Shown: positions 1,187-36,592 of the stretch, one piece after another | How positions within the stretch are numbered: position 1 is the stretch's first letter | Layout: every line of letters begins with the position of its first letter | DNA from: a virus | IMG/VR virus record: IMGVR_UViG_3300042868_008932 | Coordinates: 1-40,669 of that record | Direction: 5' to 3' (one strand) | Length of the DNA: 40,669 nucleotides | Position numbers and translations under genes: made by a program | Notes under the pieces: generated by a model | What the model was told of the DNA's origin: nothing | The model's input: only the letters and a program-made list of their open reading frames with translations | Databases searched by the model: none

Positions 1187-3632
1187 TATCGTATCCGGTG
1201 TCAAACCCGGTAGTAAAGGCCCCACCTAACAATGCATCTTGTGCAGACATCAGTAGGGTAAACTTTGTAGTACCACCGGAAGAGTCTTCAGGTTGATTTG
1301 AGGCATCCAGAATAAAACCCTGAATATCCAAACTTCCTGATTTGAGCCTTACTTTCCGGTATTGCTCATCCTGGCTCAAAGTTAAGAAATCACAAAGACT
1401 TTGTGGGTAATTAAACTCCACCGAGATAGGCTTGAATAAAACATAATTATGGTCTGGGTCCAGAGCCAAGGCATCAATATCTATATTCTCAGCAACCACT
1501 TCGTCAGAGGTAAACTGGATGCAAGGTTCATCTGAACTGCTAATCGCACTTGAATAGCTTGTCTGGTATTCACCGACTTGATACTGAAGCTTTGGATCTA
1601 TCAGACCATAGGTATGCATACCAAGAACCTTCCACCATCTTCCGGCCACCCTTACTGGGGAATGGAAGATATTGTAGATGTTATCCAATGGACTGCTTGA
1701 GTAAGTTATTAGACTGCTTGGCATACTCACGGTTCCAGGATTGAATGTAACTGAACCAGTTTCCCCAGGAATGCGGAAACAAGTATTCTCTACATCCTCT
1801 ATCTCCAGAGTATTTCTATTGAGCCATATCAGGAATAGGTTGTAATCATTAGGTCTGTCGGAAGATCCACCGCCATTACTGATGGTACTTAGCCTACGGC
1901 TAAACTCAATGGCATACCCTTCGGCAATGATGTTACTCCTGATATCCAGATTGGCCGTAGAACCTTCATTCATTGCTCGGTTGGCCACGAAGTAGTTCCG
2001 GTCTGTATGGATGGCCCAGGCTCCAGAGATTTGTATGTTCTTCCAGTTCGGATTGTAGCCAAGTGTAATATTGTTTATCAACTTGTCAACCTTGGCCATC
2101 TGGGTTACCTCACCGACATTCTCAAAGGTCTGGCTTATCTGGTTCTGGTAGAAGTACTCCCTTGGCTCTATCCTGATTTTCCATTCAGTCCCGGTCCATT
2201 CGAAGGCCCAACCAAGGCAGAAAATCTTATCCAGTTCGTCAAATGTTTCTTTGAAGGATGTCTTCAGCTTGGTAAGATCATCTGGATTTTCGGTGCCAAC
2301 ATTACACCCGATGCTTATTTGCTCAATAGTTCTGGCATTACGGATTTTAAGACCATTGGTCAGGAAGTTATTCCAATAGCATCCACCTCCTGATTCGCTG
2401 AATACATCAGAAAGAAGTTTGTCATCACTTCCAGTAAGGATATAAATCTGCCTCTTGAGCCATTGCTCTATGGTTAACCCATTGCATAAAGAGGCAAAGT
2501 CACCAGTATTAATCTCGGAAACTGAAAGGCATACATTATTCCATACAACCTTCCATTCAGCCTCGTACCATTGGTTTGTCAATGGGGCCGGAAGTATTAC
2601 CAGGTCATCTCTTTTTAAAGTACCATTAACTCCTATCTCCATTGAGATAAAAGCTTTATAATCTGGCTGAAGAGTAAATGTCCCAGTAAAGTCCCAGGTG
2701 TTTGTAGTAAATGTAGGATAGGCTTGCCCAATCCCAGGACTGCTTACTAAAGCCGTACTGCCAATTAGTATGGAATAAATAAAATTGTCTGCACTATCAT
2801 ATACCGAAAGGATTACATCGGCATTAGAATCAGCACTAATGACTAATGGGTTTGGAATCCAAGCTATGCCACCCCAGGCACCTTGCTTTAGGTCCTCAAA
2901 GGAAAAGTATGTATCTCCGTGGAATGCAAAATCATATGTTCTTGCGTACCCTGCATTGTTTTTCATAAAAGGGGCACCGTAGGACCAAAGCAATCCAGTA
3001 GGATCAAAGGTTGTCCCTACTGGAGAAACAAAGTCGCTATTGTCAAAGTATGTAGGTGCAATTGTAGAATATTTAGCAATGTCCCAACCATACTTTGGAC
3101 CTACAAAACTATATTCCCAACTTAGAAGAACCGTGCTATCAACTTCTTTCTGGGAGGCAGCGGCAGCCAGATATAAATCCTGCTTGTGTAACCTTACATT
3201 CTTATAAGTCAAAGGATCTATGGCATTCCCATTAAGGTCCTTTAATGTGGTAAGGTCAATTTCCACATCCTGCCTGGCCTTGAATTGTTCCCGGAAGTTA
3301 TCGTCAATAATGCCAACGGTTATCTCCCAGGAATCCGTGTCACACACATTATGTTCCTCGTAAACTGAGAGATTCAGGAAACCATCGAACTGCCAAGGGT
3401 TTCCATCGTACCCGACATCCGAAATAATCTGGATGGCAATCTGGGCATTGATGAAGTACTGGTCATACTGGGCCTTAATAAGCTTCGCACCTTTCTCATA
3501 GAACTTTAGTTCGGTGCTGAATGGTTGGTCTATTCCGTGGCTTTCCATCCGGATGGCCGTAAATTCTACTGCATCCCAACCTATTGGTTCTTCAACCTCG
3601 GTTCCATTAAGATAAAAACTCCATCCTGCCAT
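1176..3632 (-). CDS. tail-associated structural protein (818 aa)
   Basis: This large protein lies directly downstream of the tape measure gene and upstream of the fibre, the usual place of distal-tail or tail-hub proteins in siphoviruses. It begins MAGWSFYLNGTEVEEPIGW and is rich in Trp, Tyr and beta-strand-like segments, with no membrane segment. I recognise no catalytic motif. The ATG at 3632 lies only 4 nt after a TACTTTTG promoter box (3637-3644), which itself follows a terminator, so the message may be leaderless. Function is inferred from position and size only. Confidence 0.65.
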   Translation of the reverse strand: MAGWSFYLNGTEVEEPIGWDAVEFTAIRMESHGIDQPFSTELKFYEKGAKLIKAQYDQYFINAQIAIQIISDVGYDGNPWQFDGFLNLSVYEEHNVCDTDSWEITVGIIDDNFREQFKARQDVEIDLTTLKDLNGNAIDPLTYKNVRLHKQDLYLAAAASQKEVDSTVLLSWEYSFVGPKYGWDIAKYSTIAPTYFDNSDFVSPVGTTFDPTGLLWSYGAPFMKNNAGYARTYDFAFHGDTYFSFEDLKQGAWGGIAWIPNPLVISADSNADVILSVYDSADNFIYSILIGSTALVSSPGIGQAYPTFTTNTWDFTGTFTLQPDYKAFISMEIGVNGTLKRDDLVILPAPLTNQWYEAEWKVVWNNVCLSVSEINTGDFASLCNGLTIEQWLKRQIYILTGSDDKLLSDVFSESGGGCYWNNFLTNGLKIRNARTIEQISIGCNVGTENPDDLTKLKTSFKETFDELDKIFCLGWAFEWTGTEWKIRIEPREYFYQNQISQTFENVGEVTQMAKVDKLINNITLGYNPNWKNIQISGAWAIHTDRNYFVANRAMNEGSTANLDIRSNIIAEGYAIEFSRRLSTISNGGGSSDRPNDYNLFLIWLNRNTLEIEDVENTCFRIPGETGSVTFNPGTVSMPSSLITYSSSPLDNIYNIFHSPVRVAGRWWKVLGMHTYGLIDPKLQYQVGEYQTSYSSAISSSDEPCIQFTSDEVVAENIDIDALALDPDHNYVLFKPISVEFNYPQSLCDFLTLSQDEQYRKVRLKSGSLDIQGFILDASNQPEDSSGGTTKFTLLMSAQDALLGGAFTTGFDTGYDNGE

Positions 3633-29814: not shown

Positions 29815-29844
29815 CAAATCTAATTTGAATATTTGCATTTACAA
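29815..29844 (-). promoter_or_regulatory. promoter of the GT25 gene
   Basis: Minus strand TTG (29842-29844), N19, TAGATTTG (29815-29822), a perfect consensus. The GT25 ATG is at 29795. The box lies within the upstream region of the divergent DUF4417 gene. Confidence 0.78.
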
Positions 29845-29850
29845 ATTCAG

Positions 29851-30555
29851 ATGGATACACGAAGTTCAGACAATTGGGCAAAGAAGCCAGGTGGGTGGGA
29901 TTCACTCAATACAGAACTACTTAGGTCGGACGATGACTGGCCTGAAATAAATTGCAGAAATGCTAATGTCAACTACATCGTTAATGTAAATGACCGAAAA
30001 AAAATATCCGAAGGATGCACGATATCTACCTTCCTGGACGATTACCATCTGGAGAGGCTCTGGAACCAACCAGAAAGATATGGCCGTAGATTCCTGAATA
30101 TGAATGTAGCCAATGTAATGTCCCCAGACTTTTCTCTGCTCATCGGGATGCCATTGGCTATGCTGATGTGGAATACCTTTAGGAGCCGGTTGGTAGGTAA
30201 TGCTTGGCAGGAGATGGGACTTAATGTAATACCTACGGTAACCTGGTCAGATGAAAAGTCCTTCCCATTCTGCTTTAAAGGGATTGCCAAAGGATCGGTA
30301 GTGGCCATCTCTGATGTTGGCATCCAGAATAACGAGGAACGATATTACTTCGACCTTGGCTATCATCGAATGATTGAGGCCATAGAGCCTAAACAAATCT
30401 TGTTTATGTCAGGTAAAAAAAATAGACATTTGTACGAACATCCAGATGTAGTATTTCTGGATTCATTTTTCACTAAACGAAAAAAACAATGGGAGGCCGA
30501 GGCAAAAAAAGAAACAAACGGAATACCTACTATGGGCAATCAGGAGGAGCAGTAA
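29851..30555 (+). CDS. DUF4417 protein (234 aa)
   Basis: The ATG at 29851 (MDTRSSDNWAKKPGGWDS) is used; a TTG at 29833 is less likely. It matches DUF4417: STFLDDYHLERLWNQPERYG, MSPDFSLLIGMPLAMLMWN, WQEMGLNVIPTVTWSDEKSF and FCFKGIAKGSVVAISDVG. The family occurs in phages and mobile elements of many hosts without known function. A short gene overlaps its 3' end in another frame. Confidence 0.85.
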   Translation: MDTRSSDNWAKKPGGWDSLNTELLRSDDDWPEINCRNANVNYIVNVNDRKKISEGCTISTFLDDYHLERLWNQPERYGRRFLNMNVANVMSPDFSLLIGMPLAMLMWNTFRSRLVGNAWQEMGLNVIPTVTWSDEKSFPFCFKGIAKGSVVAISDVGIQNNEERYYFDLGYHRMIEAIEPKQILFMSGKKNRHLYEHPDVVFLDSFFTKRKKQWEAEAKKETNGIPTMGNQEEQ

Positions 30556-31970: not shown

Positions 31971-32092
31971 GACTTGGATCAAACGATGTAGACCGGGTAA
32001 TAAAGGAGACCATAGCCAATATCTTCCTTTACTCCCTTTATGCCTTCTTCTTTGGCTTACTGGCCTTTAAACTTTGGATGAAAATCAGATGA
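31967..32092 (+). CDS. small single-pass membrane protein (41 aa)
   Basis: ATG at 31967 overlaps the previous stop, and the TGA at 32092 overlaps the methyltransferase ATG, so it is tightly coupled to both. It starts MRLGSNDVDRVIKETIANIF and contains one membrane segment (about residues 19-36, IFLYSLYAFFFGLLAFKL) followed by a basic end. Function unknown. Confidence 0.6.
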   Translation: MRLGSNDVDRVIKETIANIFLYSLYAFFFGLLAFKLWMKIR

Positions 32093-33579
32093 AATACGGA
32101 TCTGTATGTTCAGGAATCGAAGCAGCTTCGGTAGCCTGGGAAAGCCTTGGATGGGAGGCACAATGGTACTCAGAAATTGAGCATTTCCCATCAGCAGTAT
32201 TATCACACCGATTCCCAACGGTGCCAAACTTGGGAGATATGACTAAAATTCACGAAACAGAAACATTCAATGATACAACTATCGATCTTCTCGTCGGAGG
32301 TACCCCCTGCCAATCCTTCTCAGTCGCTGGCCTTCGAAAAGGGCTTGCTGATCCACGAGGAAACCTTATGCTTACCTTTCTCTCTTTGGCTGAAAGAAAA
32401 AAGCCAAGGTGGATTGTCTGGGAAAATGTCCCCGGTGTGTTGTCAAGTAACGGAGGAAGGGATTTTGGAACCTTCCTCGCTGCGTTGGGGCAACTCGGGT
32501 ATGGGTTTGCCTACCGAATTCTTGACGCTCAGTACTTCGGAGTCGCACAAAGGCGCAGAAGAGTCTTTGTTGTCGGATACCTTGGAGACTGGAGACCTTG
32601 CGCCTCGGTATTATTTGAGCAAGATTGCTTGTCAGGGCATTCTAAGAAGAGCAGAGAAAAGAGGAAAGCAACTTCCTCAGATGCTCAAGGAGGCTCTGGA
32701 GTCGGTAGTCAATGGTGGGATGGTGGACAAACTTCAGGGACATTAACAAAACAGAATGCCAATGGTGCCCAAAGGATGCCTGATAAGGATAACTTTGGGG
32801 CGGTTCTTGAACCGGTCACTCACGCATTCAAAGTTCGTGGAGGAGTCGAAGAAAACTCCGGTGAACAAGGTGGTACTCCTGGGAAGAAAGCAGGAAAGGG
32901 ATACCTTGGTTCAGACGAACTTGCGTTTACCATTGGGGCAACCCAGGATCAACAGATAGCGCAACCAATTGCCTATTCCTTTGATAGTCTTGCTTCCAAT
33001 AGTATGAAGTCAAGCAATCCTAATTCAGGATGCCGTGAGGTGGAGACAAGCAGCACAATTGATACTACAATACCAACCCCTTCAAAGAATCAAGGAGGGA
33101 TTGCTATAGCGCAACCAATTGCCTATGAGAATCACGCACAAGACTCAAGGGTAAGGGAGATTGGAGATACCTGCACTACCGTTACTTCCAATTATGGTAT
33201 GGGTGGTGGTAATGTCCCACTTTTGGGGCAACCTCCAACAATAATTGACAGGGCAGCTTTCAACCAGGGGCAGAATGCTCAATATGACATTAAGATTGAG
33301 GAAGGTCAAACAATGCCATCTCTTGTTGCAAGAGGCCCACACGGAGTAGGACAACCAAAGCCACCAACAATGGCCATCCGCAGACTTACTCCAAGAGAAT
33401 GCGAAAGGCTTCAAGGCTTTCCTGATGATTGGACTCTTATCCCATACCGGAATAAGTCAGCAGACCAATGCCCTGATGGGCCAAGGTACAAGGCTTGCGG
33501 AAACTCAATGGCAGTCCCGGTAATGAGATGGATTGGCCAAAGGATTGAGATGGTTGAGAAACTTATCTCATCCCAGTAA
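32089..33579 (+). CDS. C5 cytosine DNA methyltransferase (496 aa)
   Basis: It methylates cytosine at C5 in a specific site. Motifs: I SVCSGIEAASVAW (5-17), IV GGTPCQSFS with catalytic Cys74, VI ENV (112-114), VIII QRRRRVF (154-160), then a long variable target-recognition region, IX RRLTPRECERLQGFPDDW and X GNSMAVPVMRW near the C-terminus. All key residues are kept, so it should be active, probably guarding phage DNA from restriction. A 21-bp direct repeat (32956-32976 and 33106-33126) encodes AQPIAY twice. A second gene overlaps it in another frame at 32270-32746. Confidence 0.93.
   Translation: MKYGSVCSGIEAASVAWESLGWEAQWYSEIEHFPSAVLSHRFPTVPNLGDMTKIHETETFNDTTIDLLVGGTPCQSFSVAGLRKGLADPRGNLMLTFLSLAERKKPRWIVWENVPGVLSSNGGRDFGTFLAALGQLGYGFAYRILDAQYFGVAQRRRRVFVVGYLGDWRPCASVLFEQDCLSGHSKKSREKRKATSSDAQGGSGVGSQWWDGGQTSGTLTKQNANGAQRMPDKDNFGAVLEPVTHAFKVRGGVEENSGEQGGTPGKKAGKGYLGSDELAFTIGATQDQQIAQPIAYSFDSLASNSMKSSNPNSGCREVETSSTIDTTIPTPSKNQGGIAIAQPIAYENHAQDSRVREIGDTCTTVTSNYGMGGGNVPLLGQPPTIIDRAAFNQGQNAQYDIKIEEGQTMPSLVARGPHGVGQPKPPTMAIRRLTPRECERLQGFPDDWTLIPYRNKSADQCPDGPRYKACGNSMAVPVMRWIGQRIEMVEKLISSQ
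32270..32746 (+). CDS. overprinted gene inside the C5 methyltransferase (158 aa)
   Basis: It is read in the +1 frame relative to the methyltransferase from ATG 32270 to a stop at 32746. The protein has LSGKMSPVCCQVTEEGILEP (about 49-68), RWGNSGMGLPTEFLTLSTSE (about 72-91), and LSDTLETGDLAPRYYLSKIA then CQGILRRAEKRGKQLP. From memory, this NSGM...LTLSTSE...LETG...RYYLS..AC.GILRRAEKRGK...LP series is shared by many phage proteins annotated as hypothetical. Shadow frames do not normally carry such an ordered motif series. Function unknown. Confidence 0.62.
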   Translation: MIQLSIFSSEVPPANPSQSLAFEKGLLIHEETLCLPFSLWLKEKSQGGLSGKMSPVCCQVTEEGILEPSSLRWGNSGMGLPTEFLTLSTSESHKGAEESLLSDTLETGDLAPRYYLSKIACQGILRRAEKRGKQLPQMLKEALESVVNGGMVDKLQGH

Positions 33580-34726: not shown

Positions 34727-34750
34727 AAGGGCCTCTCGGCCCTTTTTTTA
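34727..34750. terminator. bidirectional terminator
   Basis: Stem AAGGGCC/GGCCCTT (34727-34733 and 34738-34744) with loop TCTC, then T run on the plus strand. It ends the 62-residue gene and probably the portal side as well. Confidence 0.85.
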
Positions 34751-36592
34751 TTGCTCAATGTCTATATCCTCGTCCCTGATTTGAACTGGTGGCTCTTGTG
34801 GCATTATTGGCACGATGGAAGCATTAATCTTTACCATCTTCTCTCTTGCCAACCTTTCCACATCTGCCCTTTGTTCCATTATTGGCTTCTGGAACCAGAC
34901 TGGATCTTCCTGGCTTAACTGGCTTACGAAGGCCGGTAGGTTAACAGAAAGCACATAGTCTTCCTTGGAGCAACCATTCGTTTCTGCCAGTAGGGACTTT
35001 TCATCAGAAGTCTTGAACGGCAATGGATCAAGCATATTGATAATCTTCAGGAATACCAATTGGTTGCTATTCTCGCCATAAAGCTTCTCGGTGTAATCCA
35101 GTTCAATTCCGTGGACGATGATTGGGTTGTATGAATTACTCCGGGCAACAGATAGCATATCTGAAATCATCCCGGCCGTAAGTACATCAAACTCGGTAGG
35201 CACCGTAATGGAAGGCAGAGCATTCTGGACATTATCGTCCGTAATCAGGCTCAGAGAAAAGAGGTTGTTGTACCTCTGGTACATTATGTGGTAGCAAGCC
35301 ATCCGGTATACTTTAGCCAGATGGACACACACCGAATAGCAGAAGGTATTTAGTTCCTTCCTATCGTACTGCTTGGCAATCCCTGATTGCTCTGCCGGAA
35401 TCTGGCCGAGAATCTCCAGACCGATGGCCTTGAATCCTTGGAATTCCTTGTAGATAATGTCCTCCTGGAATAGCCTTACAGAATCAACTGGCCTTTCGAT
35501 ATATCCTGCCGGTGGTACTGGTGGTACAATCGGTGTAGGATTGATTGCAGATACTCGGTCAAGGTTTATCTCCATTAATCCAAACGGAGTCGTGGAGGCC
35601 CTTCCAGAGCCTTTACAATCGTTACATCCGGCCTTCTCGTTCTTGCCATTAATCCTTTCACCAGTTCCGTTACAAGTTTTACAAGGGGACATTTTCAAGG
35701 CCCATTTCTGAGGCAATGCGTGAACGGCAAACATTACATTCAAATCGTCAGTCCTGAATAGAACCTCGTTCCAAGCAGGGAGGCAAGGCTCCAGTACTGA
35801 GTCATAAATCAAATGGCCATCCTCTTCTTCGCAAATGATATTACCAGTCTTGAATGCAGGAAGGTATTGGAACTTGAATGGCATCGTGTAGACAATAAGA
35901 GGGTTAGCCTCCCGATATTGCCTTACCTGACGAAATAGAATAACACCTTCGGTGGTTACTGCCAGAAACTGGTCCCACTTCTTGCCATCTGTATCCTTCC
36001 ATTCCTCGGTTTTCCAGAGAACAAAGTTCTCCTCTTCGAAAAGAAGATCCTCTGATTCCACGATTTGTGGGTATGGCTTAGACCAATCCAAGTCCTGAAC
36101 CATATCAGGTTTCTCAATGAATTGCTTCAGTTCTGGCAATACAACCACAACCGCATTCGCATCCTGAAGGTAGGTCTTTAGGAAGACATTGAATAACCAG
36201 GTCTCAAGCTTGTAGGTCTTTGGCAGATTGTACCTGACATAATACTCTAAGGTATTAGGCTGACTATTGACTTTCTCCGCAATCCCGGTCCTTTTGTAAT
36301 CCGATTCAAATCGGATCTTAAAGTCATCTGACTGTTGGATTTTCTGGAGAAAGGTATAGACCCTGCCGGTGCAGATTTTAGTGGGAGATTGCCACCGCTC
36401 TTTGCGGTAGGCTTTCATCCAAGGTTCCTCGGAAGGATGTTGGCTACGGAGCAGTTTTTCGGGATAATCATTCTCGAAGTGATACTCCAGTACCTCGGCC
36501 TTTTCTCTGGCTTCCTTTATGTATTCACAACGGCCATCACGGATTTCATCATCCATAATGTGTTGAACAATTATCCCGATTAACTCCTCCAT
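34748..36592 (-). CDS. portal protein candidate with zinc-ribbon-like insert (614 aa)
   Basis: Size, acidic ends and position before the Mu-F-like head gene fit a portal, the dodecamer at the packaging vertex. In the middle, residues 304-330 contain CKTCNGTG and CNDCKGSG, two CxxCxGxG knuckles (Cys 304, 307, 323, 326) like those of DnaJ, forming a probable zinc site. QEDIIYKEFQGFKAIGLEIL and DRKELNTFCYSVCVHLAKVY follow. The portal role is inferred from context; the Cys motif is seen directly. Confidence 0.65.
   Translation of the reverse strand: MEELIGIIVQHIMDDEIRDGRCEYIKEAREKAEVLEYHFENDYPEKLLRSQHPSEEPWMKAYRKERWQSPTKICTGRVYTFLQKIQQSDDFKIRFESDYKRTGIAEKVNSQPNTLEYYVRYNLPKTYKLETWLFNVFLKTYLQDANAVVVVLPELKQFIEKPDMVQDLDWSKPYPQIVESEDLLFEEENFVLWKTEEWKDTDGKKWDQFLAVTTEGVILFRQVRQYREANPLIVYTMPFKFQYLPAFKTGNIICEEEDGHLIYDSVLEPCLPAWNEVLFRTDDLNVMFAVHALPQKWALKMSPCKTCNGTGERINGKNEKAGCNDCKGSGRASTTPFGLMEINLDRVSAINPTPIVPPVPPAGYIERPVDSVRLFQEDIIYKEFQGFKAIGLEILGQIPAEQSGIAKQYDRKELNTFCYSVCVHLAKVYRMACYHIMYQRYNNLFSLSLITDDNVQNALPSITVPTEFDVLTAGMISDMLSVARSNSYNPIIVHGIELDYTEKLYGENSNQLVFLKIINMLDPLPFKTSDEKSLLAETNGCSKEDYVLSVNLPAFVSQLSQEDPVWFQKPIMEQRADVERLAREKMVKINASIVPIMPQEPPVQIRDEDIDIEQ

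Follow-up and report, generated by a model that had tools for sequence, protein, structure and literature searches.

Among the C5-cytosine DNA methyltransferases (MTases) built from two polypeptides, M.EcoHK31I (YGGCCR) has its beta chain nested in the +1 frame of the gene for the alpha chain. The original M.EcoHK31I paper, going by its title as PMC3404938 cites it, reports that methylation in vitro needs two proteins, and PMC3404938 describes the larger subunit as holding motifs I-VIII and X and the smaller subunit as holding motif IX. In M.AquI, alpha and beta are two chains of one C5-MTase, the beta chain containing, according to PMC3404938, a portion of the variable region together with motifs IX-X. 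A second gene lying out of frame in a phage methylase gene is likewise found in ShiLan (PMC11855218), but that element is a mobile HNH insertion and is unrelated to the conserved nested gene described below. No report of this conserved nested gene in phage MTases was found in the openly licensed literature. Long, ancient and fully nested gene pairs on the same strand are rare outside small viruses.

The window analysed here, a viral DNA stretch of 40,669 nucleotides (IMG/VR record IMGVR_UViG_3300042868_008932), contains on the plus strand a C5-MTase gene at 32074-33579, identified from the list of open reading frames and by a Pfam search (PF00145, E=1.7e-58, MTase residues 6-491). It encodes 501 aa when read from the TTG at 32074, the more likely start being the ATG at 32089 (MKYGSVCSGIEAAS). 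The enzyme is complete, with motifs I, IV, VI, VIII, IX and X all present and a linker of about 200 aa separating motifs VIII and IX. Motif IV (PCQ with the catalytic Cys, 32305-32313), motif VI (ENV, 32422-32430) and motif VIII (QRRRR, 32548-32562) correspond to invariant alignment columns and are located under the nested gene. Motif IX (RRLTPRECERLQGFP, 33379-33423) was assigned from the sequence and by comparison with loci L399 and L371, and motif X (YKACGNSMAVPVMRWIGQRI, 33487-33546) from the sequence and the PF00145 match; both lie in the enzyme frame. Nearby, a plus-strand gene at 29833-30555 encodes a DUF4417/phage nuclease-family protein (PF14386, E=1.5e-45; phrog_940) and shares its strand with the MTase, while the neighbouring structural genes are on the opposite strand. 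A portal-like protein is encoded on the minus strand at 34748-36592 (phrog_7376, E=3e-7), and residues 304-332 of this product give a weak match, below the curated cut-off, to the DnaJ CXXCXGXG zinc-binding domain (E=4e-4).

In the +1 frame of the MTase gene a second open reading frame extends from an ATG over 32270-32746 of the plus strand, covering the DNA of MTase motifs IV-VIII and terminating near the start of the linker; its product is a candidate beta-like accessory subunit. A preliminary description had proposed that an ordered motif series (NSGM, LTLSTSE, LETG, RYYLS, GILRRAEKRGK, LP) is encoded here, and the 158-residue frame with all of these motifs is indeed present in the translation, such that conserved signals occur in both frames, MTase motifs IV-VIII in one and the nested series in the other. 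When synonymous codons of the MTase in the window alone were shuffled, the span stayed stop-free in 1.1% of the shuffles and an equally long +1 run arose in 6%, and hence openness is weak evidence from a single sequence and the case rests on comparison. Taken with the comparative results, it is nearly certain that the C5-MTase gene is dual-coding.

A tblastn search with the 158-aa protein retrieved 135 phage records, with matches mostly inside annotated MTases. The nested frame occupies the same +1 frame of the MTase in 120/120 loci, comprising the window and 119 fetched loci that were picked by a match to the nested protein. Selection of loci by the MTase frame alone gave a nested ORF in 77/77 cases, and relatives of phage P1 dmt carried it in 80/80; the MTase-chosen contigs overlap the nested-chosen set and the sets are thus not independent, though the MTase criterion ignored the nested frame. 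All 80 of the 80 reference-genome loci, from Pseudomonadota, Verrucomicrobiota, Planctomycetota, Nitrospirota and Actinomycetota, are likewise +1-nested in an MTase, and Bacillota phages also carry the nested ORF, so that its carriers are phages, prophages and plasmids across these six phyla. The tallies reach more than 130 annotated phage records, more than 500 reference-genome sites that were confirmed and about 530 records from plasmids, with annotation almost absent. These results bear out the proposal of a widespread dual-coding locus tied to DNA modification, as homologues are widespread and nearly always nested in C5-MTase genes. In phage P1 (NC_005856.1) the nested +1 gene of dmt lies at 66728-67201 (2737-3210 of locus L039), encodes 157 aa beginning with MQLTT, is unannotated in the P1 record and is under purifying selection across P1-like phages. 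A sample of about 1,290 genomes, drawn from four groups, contained no convincing copy of the domain away from a C5-MTase, and weak genome matches (L374, L378, L379, L380 and L382) were judged to be due to chance, given their low scores and the lack of a nearby MTase.

Synonymous sites of the MTase are strongly suppressed in this span, as the preliminary description had anticipated. At conserved residues of 61 MTases (<85% identical), the ratio of observed same-codon use to the saturation expectation is 1.5-3.0 over 32263-32727, as compared to about 1.0-1.15 before and immediately after the ORF, and it stays close to 1.1 over motifs IX-X despite their strong conservation. The constraint sets in at the nested start codon, and loci selected by the MTase frame repeat this ORF-confined pattern. 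In the +1 geometry each third position of an MTase codon is a second position of a nested codon, and changes can be sorted by the frame in which they are silent. Using uncorrected relative rates, changes silent only in the MTase drop from 0.72-0.81 outside to 0.26-0.27 in the nested C-terminal domain, while those silent in both frames show no such drop (1.2 inside versus 1.05-1.35 outside, and 1.2-1.4 in the MTase-chosen loci). Since the both-frame-silent sites are free, the constraint acts on a second protein and RNA structure is excluded as its main cause. In agreement, dNN/dNS in the C-domain is 0.39 in MTase-chosen loci as compared to 0.92-0.99 in parts of the gene serving as controls, 0.34 (bootstrap 0.26-0.42) versus 1.09 (0.91-1.25) in the clade of the window (31 sequences), and 0.41-0.53 versus 0.91-1.02 in the P1 group. 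The EcoHK31I-type pair independently exhibits the two-frame signature, as does the P1 dmt group, and purifying selection is acting in both frames. The C-domain is also retained where the MTase diverges, with MTase identity of 0.25-0.48 and a same-codon ratio of 2.5-3.0. In the nested N-terminal third, MTase-silent change is lowered to 0.53 versus about 0.73, yet there is no dNN/dNS signal, and this part is therefore less constrained as a protein.

The most conserved portion of the nested protein is this C-terminal domain (32516-32713, plus strand), whose near-invariant columns read LTLSTSE...LSDTLETG...RYYLSxxACxGILRRAEKRGKxLPxxLxxAL in the window and have dNN/dNS values of 0.34-0.39; in alignments of 114-119 sequences near-invariant residues gather in LSxxLE...LSxxACxGILRRAxxRGKxLPxxLxxAL. 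Its end is predicted by AlphaFold2 as a two-helix hairpin (32621-32713, plus strand; nested residues 118-131 and 137-148) with block mean pLDDT of 86-96, and confidence is low everywhere else in the nested protein (114 sequences), the N-terminal half being variable and, from this model, probably disordered. Searched alone, the nested protein matched no Pfam or NCBIfam model, including no methyltransferase model, and no relative was found in the PDB, where the best hit (E=1.6) is unrelated.

A codon-shuffle control, in which the MTase protein was kept, its codons were shuffled and the nested-frame profile was rescored, gave 222 bits for the window versus a null of 35 +/- 16, i.e. 11 SD above, and 137 bits versus 13 +/- 9 for P1. 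Divergent members also score far above their nulls, such as the MTases of a Brochothrix phage (L397; 73 bits versus 5 +/- 4), an Akkermansia phage (155 versus 22) and an E. coli plasmid (67 versus 6). At the same time, the nested signal is absent, i.e. at null, in the phage C5-MTases L395 (Gordonia), L396 (Citrobacter) and L398 (EcoRII-type). With such controls at null and divergent members far above it, the nested gene characterises a sizeable but delimited section of the C5-MTases.

The closest known relative of the nested protein is the nested beta of M.EcoHK31I. An E. coli chromosomal locus (L399) encodes an alpha of 309 aa, a beta of 176 aa nested in its +1 frame and a convergent restriction endonuclease (REase), and its beta scores 75 bits with the family profile, where codon shuffling gives 10 +/- 6.5 (Z=10). 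The EcoHK31I chains likewise have 309/176 aa. Codon 12 of the L399 REase is AGA, matching the EcoHK31I table of PMC6456624, whereas codon 20 of its alpha is GGA and PMC6456624 gives the MTase no rare codon. L399 may be equated with the EcoHK31I type by size, layout and one codon, and it carries a recognisable copy of the domain. Both L399 and the second EcoHK31I-type locus L371 (alpha/beta of 302/182 aa) possess the homologous beta domain SGM...E...LSQVLE...RAKERGxxLPxxL, common to the family of the window. M.EcoHK31I differs, however, in that motif IX is in beta and missing from alpha, whereas in the window the nested ORF ends at 32746, ahead of motif IX, which stays in the enzyme frame. Because motif IX is not in the nested product, the ORF of the window should not be classed as the beta chain of a split MTase. 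M.AquI is split, unlike the MTase of the window.

Four architectures of the domain can be distinguished. In the great majority, including the window and P1, only the domain is nested and motif IX remains in the enzyme frame; 266 non-identical loci, a count that includes L371, have the C-terminal part in the MTase ORF. The EcoHK31I-type loci L371 and L399 encode the domain followed by motif IX in the nested frame, with motif X in the enzyme frame. In L292, L303 and L339 the domain, the linker and motifs IX-X are all in the nested frame, resembling the M.AquI chains in having motifs IX-X in a second frame, and L283, whose contig contains a run of Ns, probably shares this architecture. Finally, L372 and L406/L429 encode a complete MTase whose C-terminus continues in frame into the domain, without an overlapping copy. 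The preliminary description had allowed for homologues being restricted to MTase shadow frames, which these in-frame fusions in two genomes show not to be so. These architectures and the lack of a convincing copy away from C5-MTases in the genomes sampled form the pattern expected of an MTase accessory subunit. Viruses yielded no relative of the L372 fusion, nor was one seen within the L372 family, and an AlphaFold model of the fused L372 protein yielded no confident docking. L372 lies beside genes for a putative XRE-type regulator, assigned by our own reading, and an ICEA-like protein. In L429 (1471-5629) the domain-fused C5-MTase is followed by McrB-like and McrC-like genes, which L406/L429 carry by our own reading of the ORFs, and it is possible that this locus represents an MTase-McrBC restriction system.

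Several other explanations of the nested frame were weighed. That it is a spurious shadow ORF, thrown up by MTase conservation and codon bias, draws some support from a stop-free span that is only mildly unusual in the window alone and from motifs like QRRRR, which impose some +1-frame similarity; this reading was rejected as exceedingly improbable, since codon shuffles lose the signal and control MTases are at null, the ends of the synonymous constraint match those of the ORF, the two-frame rates differ, and the C-domain keeps its sequence in places where the MTase does not. Nucleotide conservation beyond what the MTase needs would also be expected of an RNA or DNA element such as a structure, packaging or regulatory signal, but both-frame-synonymous changes are unsuppressed in the span, dNN/dNS is below 1 and no Rfam family matches, and this explanation was rejected on the both-frame-silent rates with scarcely any probability left to it. 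If ribosomes translating the MTase shifted into the +1 frame, the product would be a shortened MTase with a different C-terminus, and such frameshifting would suit the shared strand and the +1 frame. This route is made very improbable by the onset of constraint at a conserved start codon, where the nested N-terminus (32270-32298, plus strand) reads MxQ(L/S)xF or, as also given, MxQ(L/S)TF across homologues and marks an internal start. The open +1 frame usually begins just a few codons ahead of this start, which is ATG, TTG or rarely GTG, and the stop usually follows within about 20 residues of the C-domain. Shine-Dalgarno-like sites of at least 5 bases precede the start in 43% of 134 non-redundant loci versus 22% of codon-shuffled ones, i.e. 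about twice as often; they lie mostly 7-8 nt upstream, many homologues have AGGAG or GGAG, and in L371 AAAAGGAGAAAGAA precedes the GTG start. Upstream of the nested start of the window itself no clear Shine-Dalgarno sequence is present.

A real nested gene that merely shares MTase DNA while having its own job, such as a regulator or a counter-defence or host-takeover protein, would account for a product that is nested intact where alpha keeps motif IX (the window, P1 and most loci), and so is not just a carrier of a missing motif, and for the variable and probably disordered N-terminal half. This reading is nevertheless unlikely, as the domain is never away from a C5-MTase in the collections searched, its sole non-overlapping copies (L372 and L406) are in-frame MTase fusions, its frame continues into MTase C-halves in L292, L303 and L339, and the beta of EcoHK31I is known to act in methylation (PMC3404938). 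Preferred is the reading that the gene is dual-coding, that the second product is made by internal initiation and that it is a nested accessory subunit akin to EcoHK31I beta, to which we assign a probability of about 0.76.

On the accessory-subunit reading, ribosomes would initiate inside the MTase gene in the +1 frame and produce a second protein of about 100-160 aa, a homologue of the N-terminal domain of EcoHK31I-type nested beta chains, with a variable N-terminal half and, at its C-terminal end, a conserved basic hairpin of two predicted helices. This protein would bind alpha, probably via the basic hairpin, and alpha may require it to fold, bind DNA or be active; translation, physical association and a requirement for activity are what we infer. 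In EcoHK31I-type enzymes beta would additionally supply motif IX. Because the domain is kept where alpha has motif IX, it must itself serve the enzyme or the phage. The position of motif IX in the enzyme frame of the window means that alpha could in principle work alone, which counts against a subunit, as do the lack of a Shine-Dalgarno sequence in the window, the many C5-MTases without the ORF (L395, L396, L398) and the low AlphaFold confidence outside the hairpin with no docking. On balance, the nested product is probably an accessory subunit of the MTase that annotation has missed. The preliminary description was correct in linking the locus to DNA modification, but the role it had called unknown need not remain so, since the EcoHK31I-type nested beta falls in the family.

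The nested beta of EcoHK31I was already known; the novelty appears to lie in its membership of a widespread family of overlapping genes, in the absence of motif IX from the commonest form of this family, and in the presence of the gene, unannotated, in P1 dmt and in many phages and prophages. If this is true, the EcoHK31I beta joins a large family, and phage MTases assayed as single cloned ORFs either still held a second subunit or lost it by recoding; codon-optimised synthetic MTases would lose the second gene and could seem inactive. P1 offers a clean laboratory test. It is somewhat favoured, at a lower level of confidence, that a large C5-MTase subfamily including P1 Dmt consists of two-subunit enzymes whose second chain escaped notice because it is encoded within the gene for the first, that the nested gene is ancient and older than the spread of these MTases across several phyla, and that EcoHK31I beta is a derived form which captured motif IX by a change of frame.

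The 139-aa family phrog_16143, labelled DNA methyltransferase, is matched by the nested protein of the window at E=0.0012 only and by its relatives L034, L036, L037 and L361 at 1e-7 to 1e-10, and by sequence it is probably the nested family under a name borrowed from the overlapping MTase gene. Along with this match, the annotation of the C-domain as hypothetical protein gp104 in Mycobacterium phage Thibault agrees with the mention, in the preliminary description, of short phage proteins called hypothetical. In Thibault (gp103-gp104; L368, 1845-2677) an HNH gene within the MTase gene, resembling the out-of-frame HNH insertions of PMC11855218, breaks the nested frame, and the nested C-domain persists as gp104 despite this insertion. 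In Bifidobacterium moukalabense DSM 27321 a single contig has an MTase copy at either end (L347 and L349), and both copies shift frame inside the catalytic domain with the nested C-domain intact. In Metarhizobium album (L321, 1479-3186) an intein-like insertion (CFTAGHMVLS...VVHNC) occurs at MTase motif IV, and the nested ORF starts just downstream of it.
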